34,912 nucleotides of DNA, from NCBI GenBank assembly GCA_022925895.1, contig JAKSYS010000655.1:1-34912 (forward strand), read 5' to 3'. A model generated the notes under the pieces. That model saw nothing but the letters and a program-made list of their open reading frames with translations, was not told the DNA's origin and did not search any database. The stretch is from Fragilaria crotonensis (lineage: Eukaryota > Bacillariophyta > Fragilariophyceae > Fragilariales > Fragilariaceae). Of the stretch, positions 9,128-31,620 are shown piece by piece; the first letter of the stretch is position 1, and each line of letters begins with the position of its first letter. Both the position numbers and the translations under genes were made by a program.

Positions 9128-11719
9128 GATTCCCGAAGGAATGTCCGCAAGGCCATCCATTGCTGCACGCGTCGTCAATTCTCTTTGGTGTCGGAGCCAT
9201 CAGAATTTTGCCAATATTTGTACCAAGGCACTGGGCGCAACGATATTCAACGATTTGGTTTGTGACATGATGACCTAATGTGAGTCTAGGGTCTGGGTTT
9301 GAGAAGAGGTGAGGTCTCGGGCTAGGGACTCTAGCTAGAATAGCCGAAGAGGAGGTCAGGATACTGTCGTCTGTCCTGCTCCCACGTAGCTCACGATGCC
9401 AATCAACACAAGAGCAGGAACTAAATCTATATTTTTCACTCTTACTGGTGTATGACGTCTGTCTTGAGATTTTACTGAGACAGATGCAACCCGCCATTTG
9501 TTTCAAAACAACATGACCGACTTCATCCTTTCCGCTCACGACACGGCCAACGAATTTCCGACATCGTTCTATGGCAATGCCATGCATGGACACCACTGGG
9601 AAGACAAGAATAACTCCTACGTCGACTGAATTTACGACTACCAATCACAGCAAGAACGATTCTTCTTGTTGGATCGCAACACGAGTTATCAAAAACGATT
9701 AGCTCCGACGGTCGATGGCGACAATGGCAATGGGAACTCCGAAAGAACAGAAGACCACCAAATCTCAATTATTGGTACATCGAGGCGATTGGGTCGTCGG
9801 ATCGGAATGTCAACTTTGACGCTCGTGACAGAATAAGATGGTGCAGAGATAGAGATGCGGGCACAAAAATTCTAACAAGGCCCATCCGTCAGGATTGGGA
9901 GGGCTGCCGTACTGCAGTACATCCTTCACATAGCGTGACGGTCGATTGCTAGCGTACCTTTATCAAGTGATGACGTAGTTCGAAGGACTGCGTCTCCTGC
10001 TTCTCTTCAAACCGAGTACAGATTCTTTGAAGGGTGTTTGTGAGGCCGAGAGACCTGCCATGGGTAAAATGAGTGGCAGTGTTCCCGGCTCGACCCTATC
10101 GGAGCGGTGATTGCCCCGACAGTACCGGCTCTATAGTTTCGAGAGTAATTCGACCGGGGAGATTTCGGGTTAGACATGAACATTTTGCGTTGTCATAAAC
10201 TTGAGGCTTGCCATCGGCATCGTCAACGACATCGTCAAGAAACAAAAATTGCCTTTGAAATTGAAGCTCGCTTTTGTTTTCTTCTGGATTGCTGCGCACC
10301 ATGATTTCTCCCGACTCGCAATACTCCCATCTCGATGTCCACGACTAGCGCATGATCATGGTCATCATTTGCTGACTGCTGACGGTATATGGACTCGCAG
10401 TATTACTTCAATCGACTCCTCATCGATTTATAATGAATCCAACTCCAAAACTGCCCCCTCTACGCGAACGCCCACGTCGAGGATTTCATGCACGAGTTAG
10501 TTCGTGGATTGGTGAGAGGGCTTTTGTCTTTCGTTGAGCCCATCTGTCGGATCGTTGTCTCGTTGTCTGATTCAATCTCAGAAGCGGACGTGACTACCGG
10601 TAGTACAAGCTTATGCAAGGTACTGTAGTGTCATACAAAGCATGTCCAGAGTCCTCGGTACTACAAGGTACCAGCGTACTCCGGACCAGCGTAACTTAAA
10701 GAGGCGTGCGTTCGACCTGTGTCTTCCATCATTCAGGATGTTATAACCACGTGTCATCATCCTCGTTTACAAATCTCACCAGGCATCTGGCATCTGTCGT
10801 CCGGTCTGATTATCGTACCGACGCACCAAAAACCAAAATACCACGATCGCTTGCGACGTTGATGCATAATCTTCGCTAGAAATAAACGACTCTTTCAACT
10901 TCGACAAAGATTCGCACAAACTGCGTTAAATGTGAATTGCTTATGCCCATGAAGTTAGATGTGTGGTGTGTCCAAGTGGGAATGGTCATGTCTTCTAAGA
11001 ATGAAATGCTATTATAGGTTATAAATGCTATGCCCAAACGACGAACTAAAACCTCCTACCATAGATTAGGACTGAACTCTTAGCATTTAGTCACAAGGGA
11101 CAGTCGACTCAAAATCAATGTATATATTAAAGAGTTTCACAATCTATTTATCATTATGATAGTGCTGCCGAATGCTACGACCAAATGTGCGAATCAAGAT
11201 TTGTCACGGTTTACACATACGCTACTGTCGACTTAGGAACCATAAAGAAAAATGATTCGCACAAAACTATGTATTGGGAAGGCATATTAAATCTCATGGA
11301 AGCCTTTCAGCCTTGGTCGAAGTCCTACGACCACACGCCCACCTACGACATGAGTACAATACTTAAAGTGCAATATTTAGACCAAAGGCGAAATCCTTCG
11401 TTTCCCAGGTTTCGATACCAATTTCAACGTTGATTCCACGTCGAGCCGATATGTTTGTGCGTTTGAGCATGTCCACGATGTCCTTTAGGACAAGAAGAAA
11501 AGAAGCATCCGAAATGTCAACGCAAATCCTGCAGGACATTCTCCATCACAACTTGAAGATCAAGAACCAGGTTCTTGGCCGCTTCCCTTGATCCGCATCA
11601 TTTCTTTTCACTATTCGACCTTTCGGTCAGGCAAAATTCGTGCCAAGGACTCAACGCTCATCCTCTGCATCATCATCCTCAAGTTCTTCCAGTATTAACG
11701 AGAGGCATTTGCATACGCC
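9128..11719. other. gene-poor region upstream of the giant gene
   Basis: About 2.6 kb without a recognised gene. Several short frames exist on both strands but none shows a family motif. A cluster of GTAC-rich motifs with the palindrome CTACCGGTAG lies at about 10592-10690. The promoter of the giant gene should be within the last few hundred bases; no definite core motif was identified. Confidence 0.4.
10592..10606. promoter_or_regulatory. CTACCGGTAG palindrome, copy 1
   Basis: GACTACCGGTAGTAC contains the 10-bp palindrome CTACCGGTAG. The same 15-mer recurs at 34398-34412, and the 10-mer core again at 34574-34583. All are in noncoding DNA among GTAC-rich sequence. A shared regulatory site or repeat family is inferred. 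Confidence 0.3.
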
Positions 11720-12286
11720 ATGGCTCGACATTCTCTTGTCGTCGACGTTCTCATCGTCACGATGATTGTTCTGTACGTCCCCTTCTCTACGGCCTCATCT
11801 GAAGCTCGAGATGGATGGCTTCAAGTCCATAAACAAGGAGGCAGCGGCAAGGTGTCTGCGGGTGAAACCTCGGCACTGGGTGCCGACGATGATACCGAAC
11901 AAAATGTCCAACCTGACGGAAACACTATCAAGGACGAGGATCCTGACATGTTGCAGCCCTTCTTTGCAAACCACCAGCTTTCGTCCCCTAGGAACGGCAG
12001 CAATGAAAGTTCGATCAGCCGCGACCCCTACTTCAATGGTTCCGCAATATCAACAAGGAGAGCCCAGTCAACCGGAGCTAACTTGATCTCTGATAAGACC
12101 ACCTACTACGACGGACAGAAGATCCAAGTCACGTTCGAAGTTAATGCACCAACAACAACGGAGTTGCCTTTTGTGTTTCCTGGATTGCTTTGTTCCCTCA
12201 GAACACCGTTGACTACTCAGTGTTGCAAACTTGGGATTATACAGCCACAATGTATGGAACCCCGACAGGCAGCGTCGATTTCATGA
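11720..12286 (+). CDS. N-terminal segment of the giant protein up to the first frame break
   Basis: This segment encodes the signal peptide (about residues 1-26), an acidic/Ser-Asn-rich spacer and the first strands of repeat 1 (LISDKTTYYDGQKIQVTFEV). Near 12174 the sequence has TTTTGTGTTTCC where the paralogous array at 28736-28747 has TTTTGTTTCA, two bases fewer. After that point the true reading continues in the frame of 12190-12540 and this frame becomes nonsense until its stop. Confidence 0.6.
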   Translation: MARHSLVVDVLIVTMIVLYVPFSTASSEARDGWLQVHKQGGSGKVSAGETSALGADDDTEQNVQPDGNTIKDEDPDMLQPFFANHQLSSPRNGSNESSISRDPYFNGSAISTRRAQSTGANLISDKTTYYDGQKIQVTFEVNAPTTTELPFVFPGLLCSLRTPLTTQCCKLGIIQPQCMEPRQAASIS

Positions 12287-15200
12287 CTCGCTCCTTGCCA
12301 GCATTGGGTAAATACAAGGCAGTAATGGCAATCGCGTTCAGCGACCCTCTTCGCATCCTCGGCGTAAGCAACGCATTTGATGTCTTGAAGAATGATGCTA
12401 CATTGGTGACGGACGAAGTGCAGTACTTCGAAGGAGAGTTGATCGACTTAAACTTCAACATAAAGGAGTGGGACGGCACCATTGACCCTTGGTTCGCTTG
12501 GGTTGGATTCTTCCCTCAAAATGCTCAAGACTACTCTGTCCCCCCCCTCTTGCGCCGCCGTCCAATCCATACATGTACGAAAACACAGGGACTTTCCAAT
12601 TCTCAAGCAGAGGCCTGCCAGCTTTGAACGCAACCTACAAAGCCGTGATGGCAATTACCTATTCCGAACCCCTACGCATTCTTGGCGTAAGCAACTTGTT
12701 TCAGCTCTTGAGGAACACCGCAGAATTGGCAACAGAGGAACTGAAGTACTATGAAGGAGAAACGATTGATGTCACCTACACGATGAGTCAGGATACGGAC
12801 AACATGGAGTGGGGCTTCGCCTGGGTGGCGTTGTTTGCCGACAACGTAACAGACTACTCTCTTCCTCCTGCTGCTTTTCAGTCAACAGGATATTGGATGA
12901 GGGACAGCACTGCAACCATGCAGTTCTCGAGCAGAAACCTGCCAGTCTTGAATGTCAAGTACAAGGCCGTGATGGCCATAACCGATTCCAACCCTCTCCG
13001 CATTCTTGGCATTAGCAGCTCGTTCGACGTCTTGCAAAACGCTGCGATACTTGTGACTGACGAACCGAAGTACTTCGAAGGAGAAACGATTGATGTCACC
13101 TACACCATGAGTCCAGATACGGACAACATGGAGTGGGGCTTCGCTTGGGTTGCATTGTTTGCCCACAACGTTTCCGACTACTCTCTCCCTCCCGCCGCTA
13201 TTCAGTCAACAGGCTTTTGGATGAGGGACAGCACTGCAACCATGCAGTTCTCGAGTAGAAACCTGCCAGTCTTGAATGTCAAGTACAAGGCCGTGATGGC
13301 CATAACCGATTCCAACCCTCTCCGCATTCTTGGCATTAGCAGCTCGTTCGACGTCTTGCAAAACGCTGCGATACTTGTGACTGACGAACCGAGATACTTC
13401 GAAGGAGAAACGATTGATGTCACCTACACCATGAGTCCAGATACTGACAACATGGAGTGGGGCTTCGCTTGGGTTGCATTGTTTGCCCACAACGTTTCCG
13501 ACTACTCTCTCCCTCCCGCCGCTATTCAGTCAACAGGCTTTTGGATGAGGGACAGCACTGCAACCATGCAGTTCTCGAGTAGAAACCTGCCAGTCTTGAA
13601 TGTCAAGTACAAGGCCGTGATGGCCACAACCGATTCCAACCCTCTCCGCATTCTTGGCATTAGCAGCTCGTTCGACGTCTTGCAAAACGCTGCGATACTT
13701 GTGACTGACGAACCGAGATACTTCGAAGGAGAAACGATTGATGTCACCTACACCATGAGTCCAGATACTGACAACATGGAGTGGGGCTTCGCTTGGGTTG
13801 CATTGTTTGCCCACAACGTTTCCGACTACTCTCTCCCTCCCGCCGCTATTCAGTCAACAGGCTTTTGGATGAGGGACAGCACTGCAACCATGCAGTTCTC
13901 GAGTAGAAACCTGCCAGTCTTGAATGTCAAGTACAAGGCCGTGATGGCCATCGTTGACTCCAACCCCATTCGCATTCTTGGCATTAGCAACACGTTCGAC
14001 GTCTTACAGAATTCTGCAACACTGGTGACTGACGAACCGAAGTACTTCGAAGGAGAAACGATTGATGTCACCTACACCATGAGTCCAGATACTGACAACA
14101 TGGAATGGGGCTTTGCTTGGGTGGCCGTTTATGCCCACAACGTTACTGACTTCTCTCTTCCTCCTGTCGCTATTCAGTCAACAGGCTTTTGGATGAGGGA
14201 CAGCACTGCAACCATGCAGTTCTCGAGTAGAAACCTGCCAGTCTTGAATTCCAAGTACAAGGCCGTGATGGCCACCGTTGACTCCAACCCCCTTCGCATT
14301 CTTGGCATTAGCAACACGTTCGACGTCTTACAGAATTCTGCTACATTGGTTACGGACACGACGCTGTACTACGAGAGAGAAACGATCGATGTCACCTATA
14401 CAATGAGTCAGGATACGGACAACATGGAGTGGGGCTTTGCGTGGGTGGCCTTGTTTGCTGACAACGTTACTGACTACTCTCGCCCTCCAGACTCGATTCA
14501 GTCAACGGGGAGTTGGATAACGGATAGTACTGTAACCATGCAATTCTTGACAAGAGACCTTCAAACTCTAAACGCCAACTACAAAGCGGTGATGGCCATT
14601 ACTGACTCTCGCCCTCCTCGCATCCTTGGGGTGAGCCCCTCATTTCAGGTCAAAGCAGGATTGCGACCGGCGACTCCGTCTCCAACAACGCAACCCACTA
14701 CCCTGAATCCTACAAAGTCTCCGACTACGCTGTCTCCAACGCGTCACCCCACGACGCGGTCTCCGACGGGACAACCGACGACGCGGTCTCCGACGAAGCA
14801 ACCGACGACGCGGTCTCCAACGAAGCAACCGACGACACTTTCTCCAACAAGACAACCAACGACGCGGTCTCCGACGAAGCAACCGACGACACTTTCTCCA
14901 ACGAGTCGACCCACAACGCTGTCTCCAACGAGTCAACCCACAACGCTGTCTCCAACGAGTCAACCCACAACGCTGTCTCCAACGAGTCAACCCACAACGC
15001 TGTCTCCAACGAGTCAACCCACAACGCTGTCTCCAACGAGTCAACCGACGACTGCTAGACCTACCATGACACCGACGACGCTGTCTCCAACGAGTCAACC
15101 AACGACGCGTTCTCCCACGCAGCAACCCACGACGCTGTCTCCGACGGGACAACCGACATCGCTTTCGCCAACGATGCAGCCGACGACACTTTCTCCAACG

Positions 15201-18200
15201 GGACAACCGACGACGTCGTCGCCAACGATGCAACCGACGACTGCTAGACCATCCATGGCACCGACGACGCTGTCTCCCACGCAGCAACCGACGACTTTGT
15301 CGCCAACGATGCAACCAACGACGCGGTCTCCAACAGAACAACCGACGACGTTGTCGCCAACGATGCAACCAACGACGCGGTCTCCAACAGGGCAACCGAC
15401 GACTGCTAGACCTACCATGGCACCGACGACGCTGTCTCCAACGAGTCAACCCACAACGCTGTCACCAACGATGCAACCGACGACCCTCAACCCTACAATG
15501 AGACCGACAACGCTTCCTCCAACGGGGCAACCCACGACACTGTCTCCAACATTGGGACCCGTTGTATGCCCGATTGGTACATTTACGAAAGACTGCCTTC
15601 CACTCATCGCCATTGACACAATTTTTCCAAGTGGTGGCCTCGTTACAGGAGGATTTGTGGTTCGAGTTCAGGGTTTTAACTTTGGAAATTTCAGCAATGC
15701 CACCGTGATGTGTCAATTTGGCGCCTCGAGCGTCAGTGGCACGTACCAGTCAAGGACGGAAGTGGCATGCGTTGCTCCCGACGTCTCTGGATTAGGTGTT
15801 GTTGTGGAGGAAAGTGCAGTGGTCGTGTTCTCCGTGTCGATAGGTGGGCTGACGTCCTACAACAGTGTCCCATTCGAGTTTTTTGGTCTTTGTCGTCGCG
15901 ATGCGTGTGTCAACGGATTCTGCGCTGTTGCTGGGTGTATTTGCGAGAGCGGTTATCAAGGAGAAACCTGCCTCAATGCCGTGATCCCTCCTCGATTGAA
16001 GGCGGTCAATTCAAGTATCATTCAAGTTCGAGAGAATGCTAAGTATACATATCTGGCAACGATCGAACAAGGTGACTTGCCAATATTATGGTCAGTTTCA
16101 GTTGATCCTTCGCAGGACGATGTGTATATGAACCCATCCACCGGAGCTTTGGAATGGGGACAGGTGAAGGCATCAGTGACTGGTAGGCCCTACAACGTGA
16201 CCATTGTTGCCGAGAACAGTGGCGGGAGTGATTCCGTCAGTTTCCAGCTCGAAGCGCTTTCTGAATACATTATTGAGGGGGTGCGGTCGACATTGAGTGA
16301 AGTCTCGAGTGGTCCAGAAGTAACATTGGTTCCAATCGAAGGGTATTGCCTCTTTCGCGACAACCGAAGTGCGGTTCCCTTCTGTGAAGCTGAAATCGTT
16401 GTCACAAAAGACGGCTTCAGGCGCGCAATATCGACTGTCGCTCGACAAGACGGCAAAATTCGAGTTTCGTTTGTTCCCTTTGACGAAGAAGGGGGTACGT
16501 TTTATCTCAGTGGACAGCCGAAGGGATTTCGGAATGATACAATTCAAGACAGCTTCAGTCGCGTTGGCCTCGCCGTGATTCCTCGAGAGTTGCGCATTGT
16601 TGCACTCACGCTCGAGCAAATCGAGGAATCTCTAACAGTTTTGTCACTTTCTGACAATGTTGTGCTCGGAGGTCTATCTGTCAGCATAACGTCTCCGATT
16701 CCACCTGAAATTCAGAACATCAGCATTCAGCTGAACTCCAACGTGCTCGCTCCGAAGTCAAACATCGATGCCACCGTGAGAGTCGTTGGCCGTCTTTCTG
16801 GAACATTTGTTATTCAATACAAGGTTTCAAGCAACACTACCGCCTTTGCTACTGGCCGGCTGTCTTTGGGATTCCAAGCTCCCACTCCAGTGCTAGTGGC
16901 CGAGCCTCCCAGCATTGGACTTCGAGCTGCCCGCGGGGCGAGGTCCATGGCTCAGATCATTCTCACGAATGCGGGGGGAGTCCCGACGGGTGATTTGCAG
17001 GCGATCATGCCGGCAAATTTTCATCTGCTGCAGCTCGCGTCGCACTCTGTCATCCCATCGATCCTCCCCGGGGAATCAGCGACCGTTTTGTTTTCCAGCC
17101 TCCCAAATGCGACCGAGCCATTTCAATCTTGGACGGGAGCCATGAACATTCAGTCGACGACCGTTTCTCTCCGTGTGGACTTTCGCATCGATGTTGTCAG
17201 TAATCTTGTTGGAAATCTAGTTGTCATCACCGAAGATGAAGCGACCTTTCACAAGGAGGGCAATCCGCCCCTCAACACATCGAGTGTGACTATCAAGAAC
17301 GCAGTGACGCTCGAGACGTTTCGACGGTCTGTTGATGCAACCGGTTCGGCTGTGTTTGCCAACGTGTCAAGGGGTGTCTATGAAGTCCGAGCAACAGCCG
17401 CCAAGCATGGGGAGTATATGAAAATGATAGAGGTGACAGGTGCCGATCAGATCATTTATGCGTTCCTTCCAATGCAAGTTGTGTCGTACACATGGAGTGT
17501 GAACCCGATAACACTCGAAGAAGAATACGAGATCGTCCTTGAGACGACGTTCACAACCTTTGTGCCAGCTCCCGTTGTCACAATCGAGCCAAATGAACTT
17601 GATTTGGAGACTTTGATCCCCGGCGAAGATCAAATTAACTTCAAGATCACCAACCACGGGTTCATTGCTGCAAAGGGTGTCCAACTGAACCTTCCACCAA
17701 CGAATGGTCTCCGTTTTGTACCACTCCTTGGTCGCCCGATTGGTGATCTTCCAGCCAATTCTACCATTTACTATCCCGTCAAGGTTGAATATGATAGTGT
17801 TCCATCTGGTATTGGTACGGGTACTGGCACTGGTATCGTAAATACCTGTGATTATGATGTCATCAGCTGTTTTGGGCATTTGGATTGGTACATCATCTGT
17901 CGCGGCATTGTCAACTCCTCAATCCCCGTTGTGTTCAGAAACCCATGCTGTCGCGGGGGCGGCGATGTTGGAACTGTCTTTGGAAGTGGTGGTTACGGTT
18001 ACATTTACGTCTTCGGCGGCAGCAGCTCCATCATCATTCCATGCGGATGTGCAATTGAAGTGTTGAAGTGCGCTTGGTCACTTGCGCCATTTAGCGATTG
18101 CGCCGAGGCCATCGGAGGAGCACTTTCGGATTCTGACACAAGCGTTTCGAATGTCGTGGGCAATGTATTTGGCGCAGGCATGGCGTGTATGGATTACATT

Positions 18201-21200
18201 CCTTTCAAGTTTCCTATGAAAGACTGTTTGAGCGCAGTGGGCTCAGCCGTTGATGTGACGAAGACGGGATTGCCCGCTGTATCTGCCGCAGTGTCGTTCG
18301 GAAGTGCTGCTACGGGATGTGCTGGGGATGTAGGAGAGATTGGAAAGCGATTTTTTCCTTCAATCGCTAATTCCGGTATTCCAAGTACTCGGCGCTTGAC
18401 ACATGGTGATCAATCCCAGCACCACAGGGTTCTTCTCCTTCCAGCGATCGCCGCGTTTGCGTTTGAGGCTGTTTTATATGGCATCTCGCATGCTGATGAC
18501 TTGGTTAAATGTTTCAATGGAATCAAGGAGGAATGTTTTGATGCATCGGTCACTGGCTCGTCCCGATTCTTGCTTGACGTCGATAATGAGCTCTCTATTG
18601 CGCAAGCTAATTTGGTCTATTCCTACGCGGCGTTGGTAACATCCATCGAGTTGGCCTTCTATGTATTTGGGGGGCCCACATTCTTTCAGTCTATGGAATC
18701 GGACCAAGAATTCGCCTTGTTCGATTCTGCGTTCAAGTCATCCATCGACACCAACGGGCCAGGAGGCTCGCTCATCTCCGAGAGCGAAGCGTCGTCCTTG
18801 GCCACCATCCGCCCGACAAGTGATCTCACCTACAGGGATAACCTCAGAGCGTTCGTGGCGAAATGGAATCGATCGCAGGACTACTACGCGCAGGGGTACT
18901 TTCAGCCTTCTGATTTACCGCCAGCTCTTGCGTTGAACTCGGACATGATTAACTTTACGTATATCAACGAGAAAGCTGCATTTTTGAATAATGCGACGCA
19001 GACCGCACTGCGCCGCGGATTCAACGACATATATGATCTCTGGTTAGATGACAAACAAGCGTTGGAGACGGCTAATTCAAGAGTTGACGAAGGCGTCTGC
19101 GCTTCTGTGCGTGTTCAGATCAAACAGAGAGCGGTTCTTACAAGGGATGCATTTGAGGCTGAGCTGCAGATTCAGAATTCTGGTCTCGACATGACCAATA
19201 TGACAATCACGTTATCAATCACAAATCGCGACTCCTTAAGGTCTGCCAACAATCTGTTTGTTCTATCGAGTCCAACCCTTGTCGGCATCACCAATGTGGA
19301 CGGGAACGGAACGCTGGCTGGGTCGATTTCGGGGTCTGCATCTTGGCTGATCTTGGCATTAAGCGATGCTGCACCGATTGTGCCAACATATTACAATGTT
19401 GGTGGGAAGTTTGAATACTACCAAGATGGTGTGCTGACTTCCACTACGATGAATCCTGACACGATTCTGGTCTCGCCAGATCCACAGTTGGATCTGCTGT
19501 ACTTCCATGAGTACGACATCTTTGGCGATGATCCTTTCACACCGCCTATTGAACCTCCTGTGCCGTATAAGCTTGCAGTCTTGGTGAAAAATAGTGGCTA
19601 TGGCGATGCTCAGGGACTAAGAATAATGTCGGGGCAACCGGAAATCATTGACAATGAGAAAGGTCTATTGGTCGACTTCAAGATCATATCCGCAGAGCTG
19701 GCGGGAGAGCCTGTGCAGCCTTCACTCGACGTGAATTTTGGCACGGTCCCGGCTCGTTCCAGTAAGGTTGGGGTGTGGACTTTGACTTCCACCCTTCAAG
19801 GCACTTTCTCCAACTACAATGCCACTTTCACCTACAAGGGACCCCTTAATGACGAACGACTAGCACTCATCAAATCGGTGCAAATGTTCAAACTCTCGCA
19901 TTGTGTATACATTGATTCAGCGGCTTCTGCGGAAGGAGGTGGGTTTGATGACAACCTCCCTGATTTCTTGATCGATAAATTTCCTGATATCGATCTGATA
20001 CCAGACACTCTTATCAGCTCCTATCAGGGAACTGAGTATCCTGTATTCGTGACTATTGGCGGAAAGATTGTCAAATCTGAGGCGGTGGTGGGTGAATCGT
20101 TCACACATCGACTTGTCGTGAATATGTCCTTGCCATATGTTCCTTTGCCATTGGCATCGCCCAACGGAAACTGGTTTTATTTTCGTTTCAACGACACGCT
20201 GCCATCATCCTTTAACCTTCAATCAGTTGTTCGCGAGAGGGGGACCCGGGAGGTTCTTCTTGGGCAGAATGTCTGGCGCACGTCCAAGATACGGCGTCTT
20301 GTTGGAGTTGGTGAAGTGCCTCAAAGATATTTCCATATTCTGGACTATGGGCCCCCCTCTGGTGTTTATGAATTACGTTTCAGCTCGGTTGGTATGGTTC
20401 TCCAACTGACGGCCACCAACATCACTCAAACGTCCGCAGTACTGTCGTGGACCTCTGCGGAGCCAGGGATGTACTTCGCAGTTTATCAGAAGTCAGCATC
20501 GGAGGAACCCGAAAGATACAACTTGATCGAAACGGATGTTCGAGGAACATCTTATTTGGTGTCAAATTTGCTGCCAGCGTCGACTTATTCAATTCAAATC
20601 CGGATGGCATCAGCGCCAGGTGGATACATATCAGGCGGAAGCGAGCTACTACTAACCACACTGGATTCGTTCAATAGAACATTGCAACCTGCGACACTGT
20701 CTCCAACAAAGCAACCAACGACTATACCTCCAACGATGCAACCGACAACGTTGTCTCCAACAAGACAGCCGACGACCCTAAGTCCTACGATGAGACCGAC
20801 TACGCTGTCTCCAACGAGTCAACCGACGACGCGGTCTCCGACGGGACAACCGACGACGCGGTCTCCAACGAAGCAACCGACGTCACTTTCTCCAACGAGA
20901 CAACCAACGACGAGGTCTCCGACGGGACAACCGACGACACTTTCTCCAACGAGTCGACCCACAACGCTGTCTCCAACGAGTCAACCCACAACGCTGTCTC
21001 CAACGAGTCAACCGACGACTGCTAGACCTACCATGACACCGACGACGCTGTCTCCAACGAGTCAACCAACGACGCGGTCTCCCACGCAGCAACCCACGAC
21101 GCCGTCTCCAACGGGACAACCGACGACGTTGTGGCCAACAACCCTACCAACCACGTTGTCTCCATCACAGCAACCAACGACGACTTTGTCGCCAACGATG

Positions 21201-24200
21201 CAACCGACGACTGCTAGACCTACCATGGCACCGACGACGCTGTCTCCAACGAGTCAACCCACGACGCTGTCTCCAACCGGACAACCGACATCGCTTTCGC
21301 CAACGATGCAACCGACGACACTTTCTCCAACGGGACAACCGACGACGTCGTCGCCAACGATGCAACCGACGACTGCTAGACCAACCATGGCACCGACGAC
21401 GCGGTCTCCCACGCAGCAACCCACGACGCTTTCGCCAACGCAGCAGCCCACGACGCTGTCTCCAACGGGACAACCGACATCGCTTTCGCCAACGATGCAA
21501 CCGACGACACTTTCTCCAACGGGACAACCGACGACGTCGTCGCCAACGATGCAACCGACGACTGCTAGACCAACCATGGCACCGACGACGCTGTCTCCCA
21601 CGCAGCAACCCACGACGCTTTCGCCAACGATGCAACCGACGACCCTCAACCCTACAATGAGACCGACAACGCTTCCTCCAACGGGGCAACCCACAACACG
21701 GTTGCCAACGAAAGCACCGACGACCCTGAGTCCTACAATGAGGCCGACTACGCAGTCTCCAACAAAGCAACCGACGACCCAGAGCCCCACTTTGTTTCCG
21801 ACTACGCGGTCCCCAACGATGAAGCCGACGACGTTCTCACCAACACAGCAACCGACGACACTGTCGCCAACAATGCAACCCACGACACTGTCTCCAACAA
21901 TGCAACCCACGACACTGTCTCCAACAATGCAACCCACGACACTGTCTCCAACATTGGGACCCGTTGTATGCCCGATTGGTACATTTACGAAAGACTGCCT
22001 TCCACTCATCGCCATTGACACAATTTTTCCAAGTGGTGGCCTCGTTACAGGAGGATTTGTGGTTCGAGTTCAGGGTTTCAACTTTGGAAATTTCAGCAAT
22101 GCCACCGTGATGTGTCAATTTGGCGCCTCGAGCGTCAGTGGCACGTACCAGTCAAGGACGGAAGTGGCATGCGTTGCTCCCGACGTCTCTGGATTAGGTG
22201 TTGTTGTGGAGGAAAGTGCAGTGGTCGTGTTCTCCGTGTCGATAGGTGGGCTGACGTCCTACAACAGTGTCCCATTCGAGTTTTTTGGTCTTTGTCGTCG
22301 CGATGCGTGTGTCAACGGATTCTGCGCTGTTGCTGGGTGTATTTGCGAGAGCGGTTATCAAGGAGAAACCTGCCTCAATGCCGTGATCCCTCCTCGATTG
22401 AAGGCGGTCAATTCAAGTATCATTCAAGTTCGAGAGAATGCTAAGTATACATATCTGGCAACGATCGAACAAGGTGACTTGCCAATATTATGGTCAGTTT
22501 CAGTTGATCCTTCGCAGGACGATGTGTATATGAACCCATCCACCGGAGCTTTGGAATGGGGACAGGTGAAGGCATCAGTGACTGGTAAGCCCTACAACGT
22601 GATCATTGTTGCCGAGAACAGTGGCGGGAGTGATTCCGTCAGTTTCCAGCTGGAAGCGCTTTCTGAATACATCATTGAGGGGGTGCGGTCGACGTTGAGT
22701 GAAGTCTCGAGTGGTCCAGAAGTAACATTGGTGCCTATCGAAGGGTATTGCCTCTTTCGCGACAACCGAAGTGCGGTTCCCTTCTGTGAAGCTGAAATCG
22801 TTGTCACAAAAGACGGCTTCAGGCGCGCAATATCGACTGTCGCTCGACAAGACGGCAAAATTCGAGTTTCGTTTGTTCCCTTTGACGAAGAAGGGGGTAC
22901 GTTCTATCTCAGTGGACAGCCGAAGGGATTTCGGAATGATACAATTCAAGACAGCTTCAGTCGCGTTGGCCTCGCCGTGATTCCTCGAGAGTTGCGCATT
23001 GTTGCACTCACGCTCGAGCAAATCGAGGAATCTCTAACAGTTTTGTCACTTTCTGACAAGGTTGTGCTCGGAGGTCTATCTGTCAGCATAACGTCTCCGA
23101 TTCCACCTGAAATTCAGAACATCAGCATTCAGCTGAACTCCAACGTGCTCGCTCCGAAGTCAAACATCAATGCCACCGTGAGAGTCGTCGGCCGTCTTCC
23201 TGGAACATTTGTTATTCAATACAAGGTTTCAAGCAACACTACCGCCTTTGCTAGTGGCCGGCTGTCCTTGGGATTCCAAGCTCCCACTCCAGTGCTAGTG
23301 GCCGAGCCTCCCAGCATTGGACTTCGAGCTGCCCGCGGGGCGAGGTCCATGGCTCAGATCATTCTCATGAATGCGGGGGGAGTCCCGACGGGTGATTTGC
23401 AGGCGATCATGCCGGCAAAGTTTCATCTGCTGCAGCTCGCGTCGCACTCTGTCATCCCATCGATCCTCCCCGGGGAATCAGCGACCGTTTTGTTTTCCAG
23501 CCTCCCAAATGCGACCGAGCCATTTCAATCTTGGACGGGAGCCATGAACATTCAGTCGACGACCGTGTCTCTCCGTGTGGACTTTCACATCGATGTTGTC
23601 AGTAATCTTGTTGGAAATCTAGTTGTCATCACCGAAGATGAAGCGACCTTTCACAAGGAGGGCAATCCGCCCCTCAACACATCAAGTGTGACTATCAAGA
23701 ACGCAGTGACGCTCGAGACGTTTCGACGGTCTGTTGATGCAACGGGTTCGGCTGTGTTTGCCAACGTGTCAAGGGGTGTCTATGAAGTCCGAGCAACAGC
23801 CGCCAAGCATGGGGAGTATATGAAAATGATAGAGGTGACAGGTGCCGATCAGATCATTTATGCGTTCCTTCCAATGCAAGTTGTGTCGTACACATGGAGT
23901 GTGAACCCGATTACACTCGAAGAAGAATACGAGATCGTCCTTGAGACGACGTTCACAACCTTTGTGCCAGCTCCCGTTGTCACAATCGAGCCAAATGAGC
24001 TTGATTTGGAGACTTTGGTCCCCGGCGAAGATCAAATTAACTTCAAGATCACCAACCACGGGTTCATTGCTGCAAAGGGTGTCCAACTGAACCTTCCACC
24101 AACGAATGGTCTCCGTTTTGTACCACTCCTTGGTCGCCCGATTGGTGATCTTCCAGCCAATTCTACCATTTACTATCCCGTCAAGGTTGAATATGATAGT

Positions 24201-27200
24201 GTTCCATCTGGTATTGGTACGGGTACTGGCACTGGTATCGTAAATACCTGTGATTATGATGTCATCAGCTGTTTTGGGCATTTGGATTGGTACATCATCT
24301 GTCGCGGCATTGTCAACTCCTCAATCCCCGTTGTGTTCAGAAACCCGTGCTGTCGCGGGGCGGCGATGTTGGAACTGTCTTTGGAAGTGGTGGTTACGGT
24401 TACATCTACGTCTTCGGCGGCAGCAGCTCCATCATTCGATGCGGATGTGCAATTGAAGTGTTGAAGTGCGCTTGGTCACTTGCGCCATTTAGCGATTGCG
24501 CCGAGGCCATCGGAGGAGCACTTTCGGATTCTGACACAAGCGTTTCGAATGTCGTGGGCAATGTATTTGGCGCAGGTATGGCGTGTATGGATTACATTCC
24601 TTTCAAGTTTCCTATGAAAGACTGTTTGAGCGCAGTGGGCTCAGCCGTTGATGTGACGAAGACGGGATTGCCCGCTGTATCTGCCGCAGTGTCGTTCGGA
24701 AGTGCTGCTACGGGATGTGCTGGGGATGTAGGAGAGATTGGAAAGCGATTTTTTCCTTCAATCGCTAATTCCGGTATTCCAAGTACTCGGCGCTTGACAC
24801 ATGGTGATCAATCCCAGCACCACAGGGTTCTTCTCCTTCCAGCGATCGCCGCGTTTGCGTTTGAGGCTGTTTTATATGGCATCTCGCATGCTGATGACTT
24901 GGTTAAATGTTTCAATGGAATCAAGGAGGAATGTTTTGATGCATCGGTCACTGGCTCGTCCCGATTCTTGCTGACGTCGATAATGAGCTCTCTATTGCGC
25001 AAGCTAATTTGGTCTATTCCTACGCGGCGTTGGTAACATCCATCGAGTTGGCCTTCTATGTATTTGGGGGGCCCACATTCTTTCAGTCTATGGAATCGGA
25101 CCAAGAATTCGCCTTGTTCGATTCTGCGTTCAAGTCATCCATCGACACCAACGGGCCAGGAGGCTCGCTCATCTCCGAGAGCGAAGCGTCATCCTTGGCC
25201 ACCATCCGCCCGACAAGTGATCTCACCTACGGGGATAACCTCAGAGCGTTCGTGGCGAAATGGAATCGATCGCAGGACTACTACGCGCAGGGGTACTTTC
25301 AGCCTTCTGATTTACCGCCAGCTCTTGCGTTGAACTCGGACATGATTAACTTTACGTATATCAACGAGAAAGCTGCATTTTGAATAATGCGACGCAGACC
25401 GCTGCGCCGCGGATTCAACGACATATATGATCTCTGGTTAGATGACAAACAAGCGTTGGACAGCTAATTCAAGAGTTGACGAAGGCGTCTGCGCTTCTGT
25501 GCGTGTTCAGATCAAACAGAGAGCGGTTCTTACAAGGGATGCATTTGAGGCTGAGCTGCAGATTCAGAATTCTGGTCTCGACATGACCAATATGACAATC
25601 ACGTTATCAATCACAAATCGCGACTCCTTGAGGTCTGCCAACAATCTGTTTGTTCTATCGAGTCCAACCCTTGTCGGCATCACCAGTGTGGACGGGAACG
25701 GAACGCTGGCTGGGTCGATTTCGGGGTCTGCATCTTGGCTGATCTTGGCATTAAGCGATGCTGCACCGATTGTGCCAACATATTACAATATTGGTGGGAA
25801 GTTTGAATACTACCAAGATGGTGTGCTGACTTCCACTACGATGAATCCTGACACGATTCTGGTCTCACCAGATCCACAGTTGGATCTATTGTACTTCCAT
25901 GAGTACGACATCTTTGGCGATGATCCTTTCACACCGCCTATTGAACCTCCTGTGCCGTATAAGCTTGCAGTCTTGGTGAAAAATAGTGGCTATGGCGATG
26001 CTCAGGGACTAAGAATAATGTCGGGGCAACCGGAAATCATTGACAATGAGAAAGGTCTATTGGTCGACTTCAAGATCATATCCGCAGAGCTGGCGGGAGA
26101 GCCTGTGCAGCCTTCACTCGACGTGAATTTTGGCACGGTCCCGGCTCGTTCCAGTAAGGTTGGGGTGGACTTTGACTTCCACCCTTCAAGGCACTTTCTC
26201 CAACTACAATGCCACTTTCACCTACAAAGGACCCCTTAATGACGAACGACTAGCACTCATCAAATCGGTGCAAATGTTCAAACTCTCGCATTGTGTATAC
26301 ATTGATTCAGCAGCTTCTGCGGAAGGAGGTGGGTTTGATGACAGCCTCCTGATTTCTTGATCGATAAATTTCCTGATATCGATCTGATACCAGACCTCTT
26401 ATCAGCTCCTATCAGAACTGAGTATCCTGTATTCGTGACTATTGGCGGAAAGATTGTCAAATCTGAGGCGGTGGTGGGTGAATCGTTCACACATCGACTT
26501 GTCGTGAATATGTCCTTGCCATATGTTCCTTTGCCATTGGCATCGCCCAACGGAAACTGGTTTTATTTTCGTTTCAACGACACGCTGCCATCATCCTTTA
26601 ACCTTCAATCAGTTGTTCGCGAGAGGGGGACCCGGGAGGTTCTTCTTGGGCAGAATGTCTGGCGCACGTCCAAGATACGGCGTCTTGTTGGAGTTGGTGA
26701 AGTGCCTCAAAGATATTTCCACATTCTGGACTATGGGCCCCCCTCTGGTGTTTATGAATTACGTTTCAGCTCGGTTGGTATGGTTCTCCATTTGACGGCC
26801 ACCAACATCACTCAAACGTCCGCAGTACTGTCGTGGACCTCTGCGGAGCCAGGGATGTACTTCGCAGTTTATCAGAAGTCAGCATCGGAGGAACCCGAAA
26901 GATACAACTTGATCGAAACGGATGTTCGAGGAACATCTTATTTGGTGTCAAATTTGCTGCCAGCGTCGACTTATTCAATTCAAATCCGGATGGCATCAGC
27001 GCCAGGTGGATACATATCAGGCGGAAGCGAGCTACTACTAACCACACTTGATTCGTTCAATAGAACATTGCAACCTGCGACACTGTCTCCAACAAAGCAA
27101 CCAACGACTATATCTCCAACGATGCAACCAACAACGTTGTCTCCAACAAGACAGCCGACGACCCTAAGTCCTACGATGAGACCGAGTACGCTGTCTCCAA

Positions 27201-30200
27201 CGAGTCAACCGACGACGCGGTCTCCGACGGGACAACCGACGACGCTGTCTCCAACGAAGCAACCCACGACACTTTCTCCAACGAGACAACCAACGACGAG
27301 GTCTCCGACGAGACAACCGACGACACTTTCTCCAACGAGTCGACCCACAACGCTGTCTCCAACGAGTCAACCCACAACGCTGTCTCCAACGAGTCAACCC
27401 ACAACGCTGTCTCCAACCATGCAACCGACGACTGCTAGACCTACCATGACACCGACGACGCTGTCTCCAACGAGTCAACCAACGACGTGGTCTCCCACGC
27501 AGCAACCCACGACGCTGTCTCCAACGGGACAACCGACATCGTTTTCGCCAACGATGCAACCGACGACACTTTCTCCAACGGGACAACCGACGACGTCGTC
27601 GCCAACGATGCAACCGACGACTGGTAGACCAACCATGGCACCGACGACGCTGTCTCCCACGCAGCAACCCACGACGCTGTCTCCTACGCAGCAACCCACG
27701 ACGCTGTCTCCTACGCAGCAACCCACGACGCTGTTTCCAACGGTGCAACCGACGACGCTGTCTCCAACAGAACAACCGACGACGTTGTCGCCAACGATGC
27801 AACCAACGACGCTGTCTCCAACAGGACAACCGACGACTTTGTCGCCAACGATGCAACCGACGACTGCTAGACCTACCATGGCACCGACGACGCTGTCTCC
27901 AACGAGTCAACCCACGACGCGGTCTCCGACGGGACAACCGACGACACTTTCTCCAACGAGTCGACCCACAACGCTGTCTCCAACGAGTCAACCCACAACG
28001 CTGTCTCCAACCATGCAACCGACGACTGCTAGACCTACCATGACACCGACGACGCTGTCTCCAACGAGTCAACCAACGACGCGGTCTCCCACGCAGCAAC
28101 CCACGACTCTGTCTCCAACCATGCAACCGACGACTGCTAGACCTACCATGACACCGACGACGCTGTCTCCAACGAGTCAACCAACGACGCGGTCTCCCAC
28201 GCAGCAACCCACGACTCTGTCTCCAACGAGTCAACCAACGACGCGGTCTCCCACGCAGCAACCCACGACTCTGTCTCCAACGGGACAACCGACATCGCTT
28301 TCGCCAACGATGCAACCGACGACACTTTCTCCAACGGGACAACCGACGACGTTGTCGCCAACGATGCAACCGACGACGCTGTCTCTAACAATAGCACCGA
28401 CAACACGGTCTCCTACACAGCAGCCGACCTCACGGTCTCCCACGCTGCAACCCACAACACGGTCTCCCACGCTGCAACCCACAACACGGTCTCCCACGCT
28501 GCAACCCACAACACGGTCTCCCACGCTGCAACCAACAACACTGTATCCGACAATGCAACCAACGACGCGGGTTCCCACACAGCATCCCACAACGCTGCCA
28601 CCAACAAAAAAACCCACGACACGTCCTCCATCGCCAAAAGAAGCGTACCTGATCGCTGATAAAACCACATTCTACGATGGACAGAATATCGAAGTCACGT
28701 ACGAAATTCGTCAGACGACAACAACAGCTGAGTTGCCTTTTGTTTCATGGGTTGCTTTGTTCTCTCATGACACCTTTGACTACTCAGTATTGCAAACTTG
28801 GGGTTATACAGCTACTATGTATGGAACCCCGACAGGCAGCGTCAATTTCAAGACTAGCTCCTTGCCAGCATTGGGTAAATATAAGGCCGTAATGGCCATC
28901 GCATTCACCGATCCTCTACGCATCCTTGGCGTGAGTGACGCATTTGACGTCCTGCCGAATAATGCTACATTGGTGACAGACGAAGTGCAGTACTATGAAG
29001 GAGAGTTGATCGATGTTGACTACAACATAGTCGAATGGGGCATGAACATATGGTTCGCTTGGATAGGACTGTTCCCTCACGATGCGCAAGATTATACTAC
29101 CCCGATCGCGCTGTCATCCCGTCCGTATATCTACGAAAATCAAGGATCAATGCAATTCTCAAGCAGAAACCTTCCAGCTTCGAACACTAAGTACAAGGCC
29201 GTGATGGCCATAACCGATTCCAACCCTCTCCGCATCCTTGGGATTAGCAGCACCTTCGATGTCTTGCGAAACACTGCTACACTGGTGACTGAAGAAACGA
29301 AATATTATGAAGGAGAAATGATTGATGTCACCTACACGATGAGTCAGGATACGGACAATATGGAGTGGGGCTTCGCCTGGGTGGCATTCTTTGCCCACAA
29401 TGTAACAGACTACTCTCTTCCTCCTGCTGCTTTTCAGTCAACAGGGTATTGGATGAGGGACAGCACTGCAACCATGCAGTTCTCGAGTAGAAACCTGCCC
29501 GCTCTGAATGCCAAGTACAAGGCCGTGATGGCCATAACCGATTCCAACCCTCCCCGAATCCTTGGCATTAGCAGCACCTTTGATGTCTTGCGAAACACTG
29601 CTACACTGGTGACTGAAGAAACGAAGTATTATGAAGGAGAAACGATTGATGTCACCTACACGATGAGTCAGGATACGGACAACATGGAGTGGGGCTTCGC
29701 CTGGGTGGCGTTGTTTGCCGACAACGTAACAGACTACTCTCTTCCTCCTGCTGCTTTTCAGTCAACAGGGTATTGGATGAGGGACAGCACTGCAACCATG
29801 CAGTTCTCGAGTAGAAACCTGCCGGCTCTGAATGCCAAGTACAAGGCCGTGATGGCCATAACTGATTCCAACCCTCTCAGCATTCTCGGCGTGAGCAACA
29901 CCTTCGATATCTTGCAGAATGTTGCTACGTTGGCGACTGACGAAATGCGATACTTCGAAGGAGAAACGATTGATGTCACCTACACCATGAACCAAGATGC
30001 GGACAACATGGAATGGGGCTTTGCTTGGGTTGCCTTGTTTGCCCACAACGTAACAGACTACTCTCTCCCTCCAGCGGCTATTCAGTCATCAGGGTATTGG
30101 ATGAGGGACAGCACTGCAACCATGCAATTCTCGAGTAGGAACCTGCCAGTCTTGAATGCCAAGTACAAGGCCGTGATGGCCATAACTGATTCCAACCCTC

Positions 30201-31264
30201 TCCGAATTATTGGCGTTAGCAACACTTTCGATGTCTTGCAGAATGCTGCTATCTTGATGACCGACGAAACGAAGTACTACGAAGGAGAAACGATTGATAT
30301 CACATACACGATGAGTCAGGATACGGACAATATGGAGTGGGGCTTCGCTTGGGTTGCATTGTTTGCCCACAATGTTTCCGACTACTCTCTCCCTCCTGCC
30401 GCTTTTCAGTCATTAGGCTATTGGATGAGGGACAGTACTGCCACAATGCAGTTCTCGAGTAGAAACCTGCCGGCTCTGAATGCCAAGTACAAGGCCGTGA
30501 TGGCCATAACCGATTCCAACCCTCTCCGCATTATTGGCATTAGCGGCACCTTCGATGTCTTGCGAAACACGGCTACACTGGTGACTGAAGAAACGAAGTA
30601 TTATGAAGGAGAAACGATTGATGTCACCTACACGATGAGTCAGGATACGGACAACATGGAGTGGGGCTTCGCCTGGGTGGCATTCTTTGCCCACAATGTA
30701 ACAGACTACTCTCTTCCTCCTGCTGCTTTTCAGTCAACAGGGTATTGGATGAGGGACAGCACTGCAACCATGCAGTTCTCGAGTAGAAACCTGCCGGCTC
30801 TGAATGCCAAGTACAAGGCCGTGATGGCCATAACTGATTCCAACCCTTTCCGCATTATTGGCATTAGCAGCACCTTCGATGTCTTGCGAAACATTGCGAT
30901 ACTTGTGACTGACGAAACGCAGTACTATGAAGGAGAAACGATTGATGTCACCTACACCATGAACCAAGATGCGGACAACATGGAATGGGGCTTTGCTTGG
31001 GTGGCGTTGTTTGCCGACAACGTTTTAGACTACTCTCTTCCTCCTGTCGCTATTCAGTCGTCAGGTTATTGGATGAGGGACAATACTGCAACCATGCAAT
31101 TCTCGAGTGGTAACCTTCCAGCTGTGAACGTCAACTACAAGGCGGTTATGGCCATCACTGACTCGAACCCTCCTCGAGTCCTCGGGGTGAGCCCCACATT
31201 TCTAGTGAAATCAGGATTACGACCGGCGACCCTTGCTCCAACAATGAATCGTCGTCTCGAATAA
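11720..31264 (+). CDS. giant modular secreted/surface protein with Thr/Pro linkers (frame broken)
   Basis: The start is ATG 11720, MARHSLVVDVLIVTMIVLYV, a clear signal peptide or anchor. Order: signal; low-complexity spacer; eight 108-residue repeats (12080-14663); Thr/Pro linker 1; core C1 (15567-20682); linker 2; core C2 (21969-27068); linker 3; eight 108-residue repeats (28641-31224); stop TAA 31262-31264. Bridged, it is about 6,500 residues and apparently intronless. Frame breaks relative to internal paralogous copies are +2 near 12174 (duplicated GT), -1 in a C run near 12540, and ten deletions between 24356 and 26414. Long open segments are 12550-24464 and 26360-31264. The Thr/Pro linkers suggest heavy O-glycosylation; a surface, adhesive or wall role is inferred. 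No C-terminal membrane anchor is seen, and the true 3' end may be lost. It may be a pseudogene, two or more separate genes, or a good gene with assembly errors. Confidence 0.7.
12080..14663 (+). repeat. array A1: eight tandem 324-bp (108-residue) beta-sandwich repeats
   Basis: The consensus order is YFEGETIDVTY, then MEWGFAWVALFAHNV, DYSLPP, FWMRDSTATMQFSSRNLP, YKAVMAITDSNPLRILGIS. Repeats 3, 4 and 5 are almost identical at nucleotide level with an exact 324-bp period; repeat 1 and repeat 8 are most diverged. The layout (Y-x-x-G-E-x-I-x-V-x-Y, W-V-A-L-F, M-x-F, Y-K-A-V/L, I-L-G-x-S-x-x-F-x-V) resembles SKICH/Ig-like beta-sandwich domains with a DWIGLF-type strand. That fold assignment is inferred from the pattern only. 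Confidence 0.85.
12550..24464 (+). CDS. main open segment of the giant protein (A1 repeats, linker 1, C1, linker 2, most of C2)
   Basis: This is a single uninterrupted frame of almost 12 kb. Homology to the second array shows that it is the continuation of 12190-12540 after loss of one C in the run at about 12540-12547 (eight C where nine would keep the frame). It has no ATG at its upstream edge, which confirms that it is an internal segment. It ends at TGA 24462-24464, soon after a G run at about 24356 that is one G shorter than in C1 (17955-17959). In C1 the same protein sequence reads straight through. Confidence 0.75.
14664..15566 (+). repeat. Thr/Pro linker 1 (27-bp/9-residue LSPTxQPTT repeats)
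   Basis: About 33 units of the type LSPT-x-QPTT run from GLRPATPSPTTQ to SPTLGPVVCP. Five perfect 27-bp units (CCCACAACGCTGTCTCCAAC...) are at 14910-15044. A variant TARPTMTP/TARPTMAP recurs in fixed sub-blocks that are shared by all three linkers. Such Thr/Ser/Pro stretches are typical O-glycosylated stalks. Confidence 0.92.
15567..20682 (+). repeat. core C1: IPT/TIG, EGF-like, carboxypeptidase-regulatory-like, Cys-rich and FN3-like module
   Basis: This ~1,700-residue block opens with CPIGTFTKDCLP and an IPT/TIG-like domain (IFPSGG...V.V.G.NFG, 15600-15884). An EGF-like domain follows (CRRDACVNGFC, CICESGYQGETC, 15885-15984), then an Ig/cadherin-like stretch (15990-16255). A carboxypeptidase-regulatory-like fold (GNLVVITEDEAT ... 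GVYEVRATAAKHGEY, about 17211-17490) precedes VPAPVVTIEPNELDL and a Cys-rich piece (17845-18350). Next come a helical segment with DLVKCFNG, CARDB-like beta regions, and an FN3-like domain (LTATNITQTSAVLSW..., 20401-20672). The block recurs as C2 at an offset of 6402 bp. Domain names are from visible patterns. Confidence 0.8.
20683..21968 (+). repeat. Thr/Pro linker 2 (9-residue repeats)
   Basis: About 47 LSPTxQPTT-type units lie between the FN3-like domain of C1 and the CPIGTF start of C2. It includes one ten-residue unit (SQQPTTTLSP near 21170) where the nine-residue register slips, and three near-identical last units before SPTLGPVVCP. Confidence 0.92.
21969..27068 (+). repeat. core C2: near-identical tandem copy of C1, frame-broken in its middle
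   Basis: Positions correspond to C1 at a constant +6402 bp from 21969 to about 24356 with only scattered substitutions. From 24356 to 26414 ten deletions totalling 16 nt occur: about 24356, 24433, 24970, 25378, 25401, 25460, 26166, 26347, 26394 and 26414. From there to the linker the offset is a constant +6386. Nine of the ten deletions are not multiples of three. The domain content is otherwise as in C1 (EGF-like 22287-22386; FN3-like 26787-27058). Confidence 0.85.
26360..31264 (+). CDS. C-terminal open segment of the giant protein (end of C2, linker 3, A2 repeats)
   Basis: The frame reopens within the end of C2 (IDKFPDIDLIPD) and runs about 4.9 kb through the fibronectin III-like domain, the longest Thr/Pro linker and eight 108-residue repeats. 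It finishes GLRPATLAPTMNRRLE and stops. There is no ATG at its upstream edge. In array A1 the equivalent GLRPAT is followed by a full Thr/Pro linker; here a decayed linker follows the stop. Confidence 0.7.
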   Translation: MDKFPDIDLIPDLLSAPIRTEYPVFVTIGGKIVKSEAVVGESFTHRLVVNMSLPYVPLPLASPNGNWFYFRFNDTLPSSFNLQSVVRERGTREVLLGQNVWRTSKIRRLVGVGEVPQRYFHILDYGPPSGVYELRFSSVGMVLHLTATNITQTSAVLSWTSAEPGMYFAVYQKSASEEPERYNLIETDVRGTSYLVSNLLPASTYSIQIRMASAPGGYISGGSELLLTTLDSFNRTLQPATLSPTKQPTTISPTMQPTTLSPTRQPTTLSPTMRPSTLSPTSQPTTRSPTGQPTTLSPTKQPTTLSPTRQPTTRSPTRQPTTLSPTSRPTTLSPTSQPTTLSPTSQPTTLSPTMQPTTARPTMTPTTLSPTSQPTTWSPTQQPTTLSPTGQPTSFSPTMQPTTLSPTGQPTTSSPTMQPTTGRPTMAPTTLSPTQQPTTLSPTQQPTTLSPTQQPTTLFPTVQPTTLSPTEQPTTLSPTMQPTTLSPTGQPTTLSPTMQPTTARPTMAPTTLSPTSQPTTRSPTGQPTTLSPTSRPTTLSPTSQPTTLSPTMQPTTARPTMTPTTLSPTSQPTTRSPTQQPTTLSPTMQPTTARPTMTPTTLSPTSQPTTRSPTQQPTTLSPTSQPTTRSPTQQPTTLSPTGQPTSLSPTMQPTTLSPTGQPTTLSPTMQPTTLSLTIAPTTRSPTQQPTSRSPTLQPTTRSPTLQPTTRSPTLQPTTRSPTLQPTTLYPTMQPTTRVPTQHPTTLPPTKKPTTRPPSPKEAYLIADKTTFYDGQNIEVTYEIRQTTTTAELPFVSWVALFSHDTFDYSVLQTWGYTATMYGTPTGSVNFKTSSLPALGKYKAVMAIAFTDPLRILGVSDAFDVLPNNATLVTDEVQYYEGELIDVDYNIVEWGMNIWFAWIGLFPHDAQDYTTPIALSSRPYIYENQGSMQFSSRNLPASNTKYKAVMAITDSNPLRILGISSTFDVLRNTATLVTEETKYYEGEMIDVTYTMSQDTDNMEWGFAWVAFFAHNVTDYSLPPAAFQSTGYWMRDSTATMQFSSRNLPALNAKYKAVMAITDSNPPRILGISSTFDVLRNTATLVTEETKYYEGETIDVTYTMSQDTDNMEWGFAWVALFADNVTDYSLPPAAFQSTGYWMRDSTATMQFSSRNLPALNAKYKAVMAITDSNPLSILGVSNTFDILQNVATLATDEMRYFEGETIDVTYTMNQDADNMEWGFAWVALFAHNVTDYSLPPAAIQSSGYWMRDSTATMQFSSRNLPVLNAKYKAVMAITDSNPLRIIGVSNTFDVLQNAAILMTDETKYYEGETIDITYTMSQDTDNMEWGFAWVALFAHNVSDYSLPPAAFQSLGYWMRDSTATMQFSSRNLPALNAKYKAVMAITDSNPLRIIGISGTFDVLRNTATLVTEETKYYEGETIDVTYTMSQDTDNMEWGFAWVAFFAHNVTDYSLPPAAFQSTGYWMRDSTATMQFSSRNLPALNAKYKAVMAITDSNPFRIIGISSTFDVLRNIAILVTDETQYYEGETIDVTYTMNQDADNMEWGFAWVALFADNVLDYSLPPVAIQSSGYWMRDNTATMQFSSGNLPAVNVNYKAVMAITDSNPPRVLGVSPTFLVKSGLRPATLAPTMNRRLE
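27069..28640 (+). repeat. Thr/Pro linker 3 (9-residue repeats), longest linker
   Basis: About 58 LSPTxQPTT-type units. Its first units are almost the same as those of linker 2, which places the edge of the core duplication inside the linker. Four 27-bp units (CACGGTCTCCCACGCTGCAA...) are in tandem at 28431-28538. The last units drift to PTKKPTTRPPSPKEAYLIAD at the junction with array A2. Confidence 0.92.
28641..31224 (+). repeat. array A2: second set of eight 324-bp beta-sandwich repeats
   Basis: This array begins EAYLIADKTTFYDGQNIEVTYE, the counterpart of LISDKTTYYDGQKIQVTF in A1. It has the same number of repeats and the same atypical first and last repeats (PPRVLGVSPTFLVKSGL against PPRILGVSPSFQVKAGL). 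A2 is intact where A1 has the +2 and -1 frame breaks, so it serves as the reference for locating them. Confidence 0.85.
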
Positions 31265-31620
31265 TGGAGTCATACGATGAAACCGACGGTGTTCAGTCTA
31301 GAACGGCAACCAACCACCTTGTTACAAACACGTCAACCAACGATCCGAATCCGTACGACAAGAATGGCTGTGTCTCCTCCAAGGCGTCGGACAAACCTTG
31401 TCTACATTACCGACCCACGACGCTATCTCGAACGATGCACCCGACGACACTTCTGCCATCACCGCAACCTTCGTCCCGGGCTCCAAAGGAAAGGAGCAAC
31501 CCACGAAACTGTCGACCAACACAATAACCGACGGCTCGCTCTCCACCTCAGCAGCCCATGACCCTGTCTTCGACAAGCAATCCGGGTGTGTCGATTTTTG
31601 CACATTCTAGTTTCCACCCA
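31265..31620 (+). pseudogene. decayed fourth Thr/Pro linker
   Basis: Directly after the stop, Thr/Pro-type units remain readable but alternate between frames: MKPTVFSLERQPTTLLQTRQ in the frame of the giant gene, YRPTTLSRTMHPTTLLPSPQ in the next, and QQPMTLSSTSNP near 31550. The decay shows that the coding region once continued past 31264, as A1 continues into linker 1. Confidence 0.6.

Follow-up and report, generated by a model that had tools for sequence, protein, structure and literature searches.

The window analyzed here is a whole contig, C619 (34,912 bp), of a Fragilaria crotonensis assembly of 62.1 Mb in 881 contigs, and it was this assembly that was searched for related sequences. Its plastid rbcL has its best PDB matches among Rubisco entries of diatoms, in keeping with a diatom host. 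Between positions 11720 and 31264 the contig carries a succession of protein modules, comprising a signal peptide-like N-terminus, eight repeats (array A), a stalk, a core (C), a second stalk, a second core, a third stalk, eight further repeats (array A') and a stop codon. The first-pass annotation had proposed this order, these end points and a common direction for all modules, and it was right on each count. The gene opens with an ATG and a signal peptide-like N-terminus (11720..11800, +), recognized by a hydropathy scan and by similar paralog N-termini, followed by array 1 (12082..14654, +), which consists of eight repeats of about 108 residues with a predicted SKICH-like Ig fold and contains frame breaks near 12172 and 12540. 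Stalk 1 (14655..15560, +; 302 residues, 32% Thr and 23% Pro) leads to core 1 (15561..20681, +), whose frame is intact and which includes TIG, EGF-like, Ig-like, carboxypeptidase-regulatory-like and FN3 parts together with variable Cys/Gly parts.

After stalk 2 (20682..21959, +; 426 residues), core 2 (21960..27067, +) repeats core 1 with 99.1% DNA identity (5,061 of 5,105 aligned bases) and with ten deletions between 24356 and 26414, nine of them frame-changing. Stalk 3 (27068..28624, +; 523 residues when counted from 27056) is fused in frame to array 2 (28640..31210, +), which again holds eight repeats of about 108 residues and has no signal peptide of its own, and the gene closes with the tail LRPATLAPTMNRRLE and a stop at 31264 (31211..31264, +), without a Cys-rich D domain. 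All three stalks are rich in Thr and Pro. The eight-repeat arrays and the duplicated core, as originally described from the sequence, thus hold, with repeats and identities far beyond chance.

The flanks of the giant gene contain several other features. An open frame at 3005-3457 (+) matches the C-terminal part of Pterin_bind with 66 bits and presumably belongs to a folate or methionine synthase gene. An O-FucT-like gene is open at 4460-5767 (+), its score of 26.5 bits falling short of the Pfam cut-off (31.5); a 5'-truncated O-FucT-like copy with 88% DNA identity, disrupted by two in-frame stops and a frame change, is found just 3' of the giant gene at 31691-32707 (+), and O-FucT-related DNA clusters on contigs C471 and C444. 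The region from about 6750 to 9460 is made up of dispersed repeat-like stretches, 66-88% identical to many contigs among the matches listed, and is possibly a mobile element; neither of the two ORFs within it had a Pfam match. Toward the end of the contig, at 32980-34005 (-), lies an SBF-like CPA transporter gene (Pfam SBF_like, 224 bits), to which two stretches on C467 are related at 82-86%. Neither a tRNA nor an Rfam family was found in the window.

Predicted folds and secretion

Structure prediction of one repeat, which the first-pass annotation had named as a check, yielded an Ig-type model; two A repeats were modeled from a 12-row alignment, with a pLDDT of 81.8 and a pTM of 0.67. Foldseek ranked many Ig-like proteins with this model, and in VIA-align the top eight rows were all SKICH domains (NDP52, TAX1BP1) with Z scores of 10.6-11.9, followed by a row at 9.9. 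SKICH (Pfam PF17751) is therefore the closest known fold, the predicted A repeat aligning over 102 residues at 2.4 A to the NDP52 SKICH domain (5z7a; Z 11.7). At the sequence level, the whole arrays scored 53.5 and 58.9 bits against the SKICH profile (cut-off 23.4), a sum that is inflated by near-identical repeats and to which no single stretch passing the cut-off contributed, while one of ten single A repeats matched weakly (E 0.086, below cut-off) and neither of the two among them that came from the window did. Because these single-repeat matches are weak, we describe the A repeats as having a predicted SKICH-like Ig fold and do not assign them to the SKICH family. Searches of the A repeats against PDB sequences gave nothing significant (best E 0.23 and 0.43), and the array matches returned from NCBIfam (tetracycline efflux, PKS and others), far below their cut-offs, were rejected as repeat noise. 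SKICH domains are known mainly from intracellular autophagy adaptors, where a single domain is present, whereas the window gene strings eight SKICH-like repeats together in each array of a putatively secreted protein. Two consecutive A repeats also superpose over about 180-190 residues on domain pairs of complement C3/C4/C5 and alpha-2-macroglobulin that we take to be MG1-MG2 (Z 8.3-9.9), but with an rmsd of 5.8-9.1 A and 4-12% identity, so that only the tandem Ig-like arrangement is held in common.

In the core, TIG (27.4 bits, Pfam cut-off 20.9) and fn3 (28.0 bits, cut-off 25) both passed, He_PIG and carboxypeptidase-regulatory matches were weaker, and EGF models matched four of the six cores compared at E values of 1 or lower (best 3.7e-05), with all matches of core 1 below cut-off. 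Against PDB sequences, FN3 alone was found (best E 0.0007), the other core searches giving nothing below 0.1, and an AlphaFold model of the N-terminal half of the core, built on a two-row alignment, reached a pLDDT of 29.

The N-terminus read from 11720 contains a 19-residue hydrophobic stretch with a mean Kyte-Doolittle value of 1.74 in the hydropathy scan. By eye it resembles the N-termini of two related genes, C592b and C530, and the DNA at 11421-11759 is 67% like C592:135745-136092. Elsewhere, a scan of the three long open segments showed only weak hydrophobic stretches in the core (1.63-1.65). Given the signal peptide-like start and the weakness of these other stretches, secretion is predicted and the protein would be exported, and the secreted, stalked character originally attributed to it is upheld.

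Related loci and the origin of the module order

The genome has at least five loci that share modules, the window gene among them. The core occurs at four other loci, one core each: two in tandem on contig C592 (C592a and C592b), one on C530 and one on C865. Across 1,550 residues or more, the window core, of about 1,700 residues, is 64-81% identical in protein sequence to those of C592a, C865 and C530, and the cores at C865 and C530 contain one or two stops. The A repeat was found on at least C619, C530 and C592 (all 50 of 50 listed candidates scored). As read from translations, C592a has the order A-stalk-C-stalk-D, C592b has SP-A-stalk-C-stalk-D with four internal stops in D, C530 has SP-A-C-stalk-D, and C865, whose contig ends at the core, has C-stalk-D. 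The N-terminal part of the window gene, with its signal peptide-like start and an A array 5' of the core, fits this family. D is a Cys-rich domain with no Pfam match; it was matched downstream of the core at all four other core loci, and none of its 19 matches in the genome is on C619. Further D matches lie on C722, on C668 and at a second place on C865, and a 1,192-residue open frame at C243:18548-21808 (+) holds several.

The order of the window gene had been described as mirror-like. This is not the design of the family, since the four other core loci follow A-(stalk)-C-stalk-D within the limits of their contigs. Because these loci have a single core with D downstream and the window contig lacks D, A-C-C-A appears exceptional within its own family, having one extra core, no D and a second array (A') in D's place. 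Beyond this genome, one scan of prokaryote genomes with an alignment of the C-terminal half of the core gave 72 pattern-matching stretches, none confirmed as a relative. Among the matches listed from an open-access literature, no article dealt with a SKICH-array diatom protein, and to that extent the family of giant modular diatom proteins is apparently undescribed. The window gene is a real and unusual member of it, with a putative exact order and a putative single frame.

The explanation that we favor, at somewhat better than even confidence, is that the locus is a gene for a giant secreted, stalked protein in which the core has been doubled in tandem and D replaced by A', the frame breaks being assembly indels. 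A probable route to the second core is unequal exchange involving the repetitive stalks of neighboring genes; a tandem pair of family genes does exist on C592, as assembled and with frame breaks. The C-terminus would then be the second array fused directly to stalk 3, with D gone. The two cores have 28 synonymous differences over 1,237 sites (dS about 0.02; 0.9% divergence), and the A and A' arrays, compared over repeats 3-8, have a dS of 0.50 with a dN/dS of 0.17, so that arrays and cores stem from separate duplication events. Just 3' of the stop, at 31273..31584 (+), lies a decayed stalk relic, whose best match has 63% identity over 309 columns and scored 95.4 bits, where 50 mononucleotide shuffles reached 24.0 bits at most. 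Since this stalk has decayed while the 1,640-codon frame 5' of the stop is open, the A' terminus of the gene would seem to be genuine and of long standing.

Between 20738 and about 20980, stalk 2 is collinear with the start of stalk 3 at 95-99% identity, as expected if stalks were exchange points; its first window, at 20684, is only 81% like stalk 3, with a counterpart at the edge of the stretch searched. The same likeness would also follow from the main rival explanation, which we consider unlikely on balance, namely that the tandem cores are an assembly artifact in which two haplotypes of an A-stalk-C-stalk-A' gene were joined end to end in a stalk, the second copy being left unpolished. The 99.1% identity of the cores with all indels in one copy accords with such a join, the core divergence might also be seen between two alleles, the contig is only 34.9 kb long, and consecutive cores occur at no other locus (the C865 contig stops at its core). 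An allelic join nevertheless predicts a near-identical end of the stalk before the core, unless the alleles differ by an insertion, and some 300 bp toward the end of stalk 2, compared in five windows (21656-21952), have best matches of 70-84% in stalks 1 or 3, with no close match, as is also the case for the window at 21116. The flanks likewise argue against two haplotypes, as no near-identical second copy was among the matches listed for 32710-34912 (next match 86%) and, among those listed for 4400-11760 (40 of 112 candidates scored), those outside C619 are 66-88% identical, the 88% ones being short. The cores differ by 44 mostly synonymous substitutions and the stalks differ as well, so a false duplicate of a single molecule was rejected as an explanation.

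Breaks in the reading frame

The first-pass annotation described an intronless protein of about 6,500 residues. The modules indeed contain no intron, but the locus is not a single ORF, the figure of 6,515 codons being the span divided by three and not a translated frame, and the description requires 11 small indels to be assembly errors. The longest stop-to-stop frames are 12486-24461 (frame 3, 3,992 codons), which carries A-stalk-C-stalk and the N-terminal half of the second core, and 26342-31261 (frame 2, 1,640 codons), which carries the end of that core, stalk 3 and A'; reading from the ATG at 11720 stays open no further than 12283. Followed by homology, the coding path shifts from frame 2 to frame 1 at about 12172 and to frame 3 at about 12540, and then passes through nine breaks in core 2 (24356-26414), so that two of the 11 frame-changing indels fall near 12.2-12.5 kb and nine in core 2. 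Aligned to array 2, array 1 has two surplus bases near 12172 and five near 12540. All ten gaps between the cores are losses in core 2, and had ten gaps been placed randomly in the core, the probability of clustering this tightly would be about 0.0016. Introns were rejected as the cause of the breaks, because homology between the two cores and between the two arrays runs unbroken through each of them.

The evidence from sequence comparison favors, but does not prove, consensus indel errors in the assembly, in which case the whole locus would be translated as one chain. The cores are under purifying constraint: of their 44 substitutions, 28 are synonymous where 24% would be expected (P = 4e-8; dN/dS 0.18). 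Of the 15 that fall in the indel zone, 10 are synonymous (P = 5e-4; dN/dS 0.15), and nonsynonymous changes are not in excess there (5 in 1,560 sites, compared with 11 in about 2,300 sites elsewhere). Constraint in the zone is therefore that of the rest of the core, unlike that of a decayed pseudogene, although the synonymous bias spans the whole divergence of the cores and, taken alone, is compatible with very recent indels. For seven of the nine frame-changing losses, all four paralogous cores align cleanly and have the bases that core 2 lacks; another site falls in a variable stretch, and at the remaining one (24971) C530 differs and C865 has an adjacent extra base.

Small indel errors do occur in this assembly, since an HSP70 gene present twice in opposite orientation on the plastid contig C881 (7500-9600 and 132800-134800) is identical at 1,998 of 1,998 aligned bases and differs only by three one-base homopolymer insertions, which break one copy into stop-bearing pieces. 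These are insertions whereas core 2 has losses, so that the control proves the occurrence of errors and not their kind. At five myosin or HSP70 loci (C219, C298, C471, C452 and C358), matches continue in a new frame without an intron-sized gap, in agreement with assembly indels; the five were picked because they looked broken and thus give no error rate, and other loci in the myosin and HSP70 searches had open matches. One myosin region occurs twice, at C24:79000-87000 and C7:55700-63700, with 88-89% DNA identity over about 5.3 kb, possibly from an old segmental or genome-wide duplication.

That the indels are real, and that core 2 or the whole gene is a pseudogene no longer translated through, is in our judgment quite improbable. 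The 11 frame-changing indels, as assembled, speak for it, as do the decayed stalk and the decayed O-FucT-like copy immediately downstream and the frame breaks or stops that paralogous loci also carry as assembled; the family may be partly pseudogenized. A pseudogene with nine frame-changing indels should, however, also carry many neutral substitutions, and because the indel zone has no such matching load, this would be an unusual form of decay and assembly error is favored; the lack of a nonsynonymous excess in the zone and the intact 3,992-codon frame weigh in the same direction. A pair of separate genes, SP-A-stalk-C and a downstream C-stalk-A', would account for the broken zone between two long frames, but is hardly credible, as the downstream half begins inside a core that aligns full-length to core 1, with neither a signal peptide nor an intergenic stretch between the halves. 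Giant repeat genes in draft assemblies can appear broken, or whole, for technical reasons.

A putative fibre protein of the diatom surface

If the locus encodes one secreted chain, as we favor, we infer that the best functional reading is an extended wall or mucilage fibre protein; the fibre or adhesive suggested in the first-pass annotation is thus a reasonable proposal. The roughly 1,250 Thr/Pro/Ser-rich stalk residues would be extended and probably O-glycosylated, giving, with the rise per residue that we assume, a fibre of a few hundred nm. The Ig-like arrays at its two ends could bind ligands or each other, with the cores sitting between stalks; such two-ended arrays would make a cross-linker, and the D-bearing relatives may be one-end anchors. 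Diatom Trailins carry a bacterial-type choice-of-anchor domain; no such domain was among the Pfam matches here, obtained with a profile set that may lack a model for it. Neither the GDPH nor the RGD motif was found in the five open segments of the window gene, and no vWD domain was matched with Pfam.

Among known diatom proteins, the vWD/GDPH and adhesive-trail proteins of Amphora and Seminavis are likewise secreted and modular, with a hypothesized role in adhesion (PMC7335047); the window gene, with no GDPH or vWD match and another set of domains, represents a different family by these tests. AC3362 of Amphora, a tyrosine-rich cell-surface protein and adhesive candidate that proved to act in the cell wall (PMC4220933), shares a repetitive proline-rich region with the putative surface protein of the window, but is rich in Tyr and Lys, and EGF has no occurrence in the main text of that article. 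Since this adhesive-looking protein turned out to be a wall protein, caution is needed, and an adhesive function for the window protein is a guess.

Tentatively, and at rather less than even confidence, we propose that a diatom lineage evolved a family of giant extracellular fibre proteins with SKICH-like arrays, in which minisatellite-like T/P stalks serve as recombination sites that duplicate, delete and re-order modules and have produced new orders such as A-C-C-A in a living, translated protein of about 6,500 residues. To our knowledge, few wall or mucilage fibre proteins of diatoms are known, and the family offers testable candidates. If its order is real, the window gene would be a natural experiment in how the architecture of a giant surface protein changes, combining a recent core duplication and an older array with single-core relatives in the same genome.
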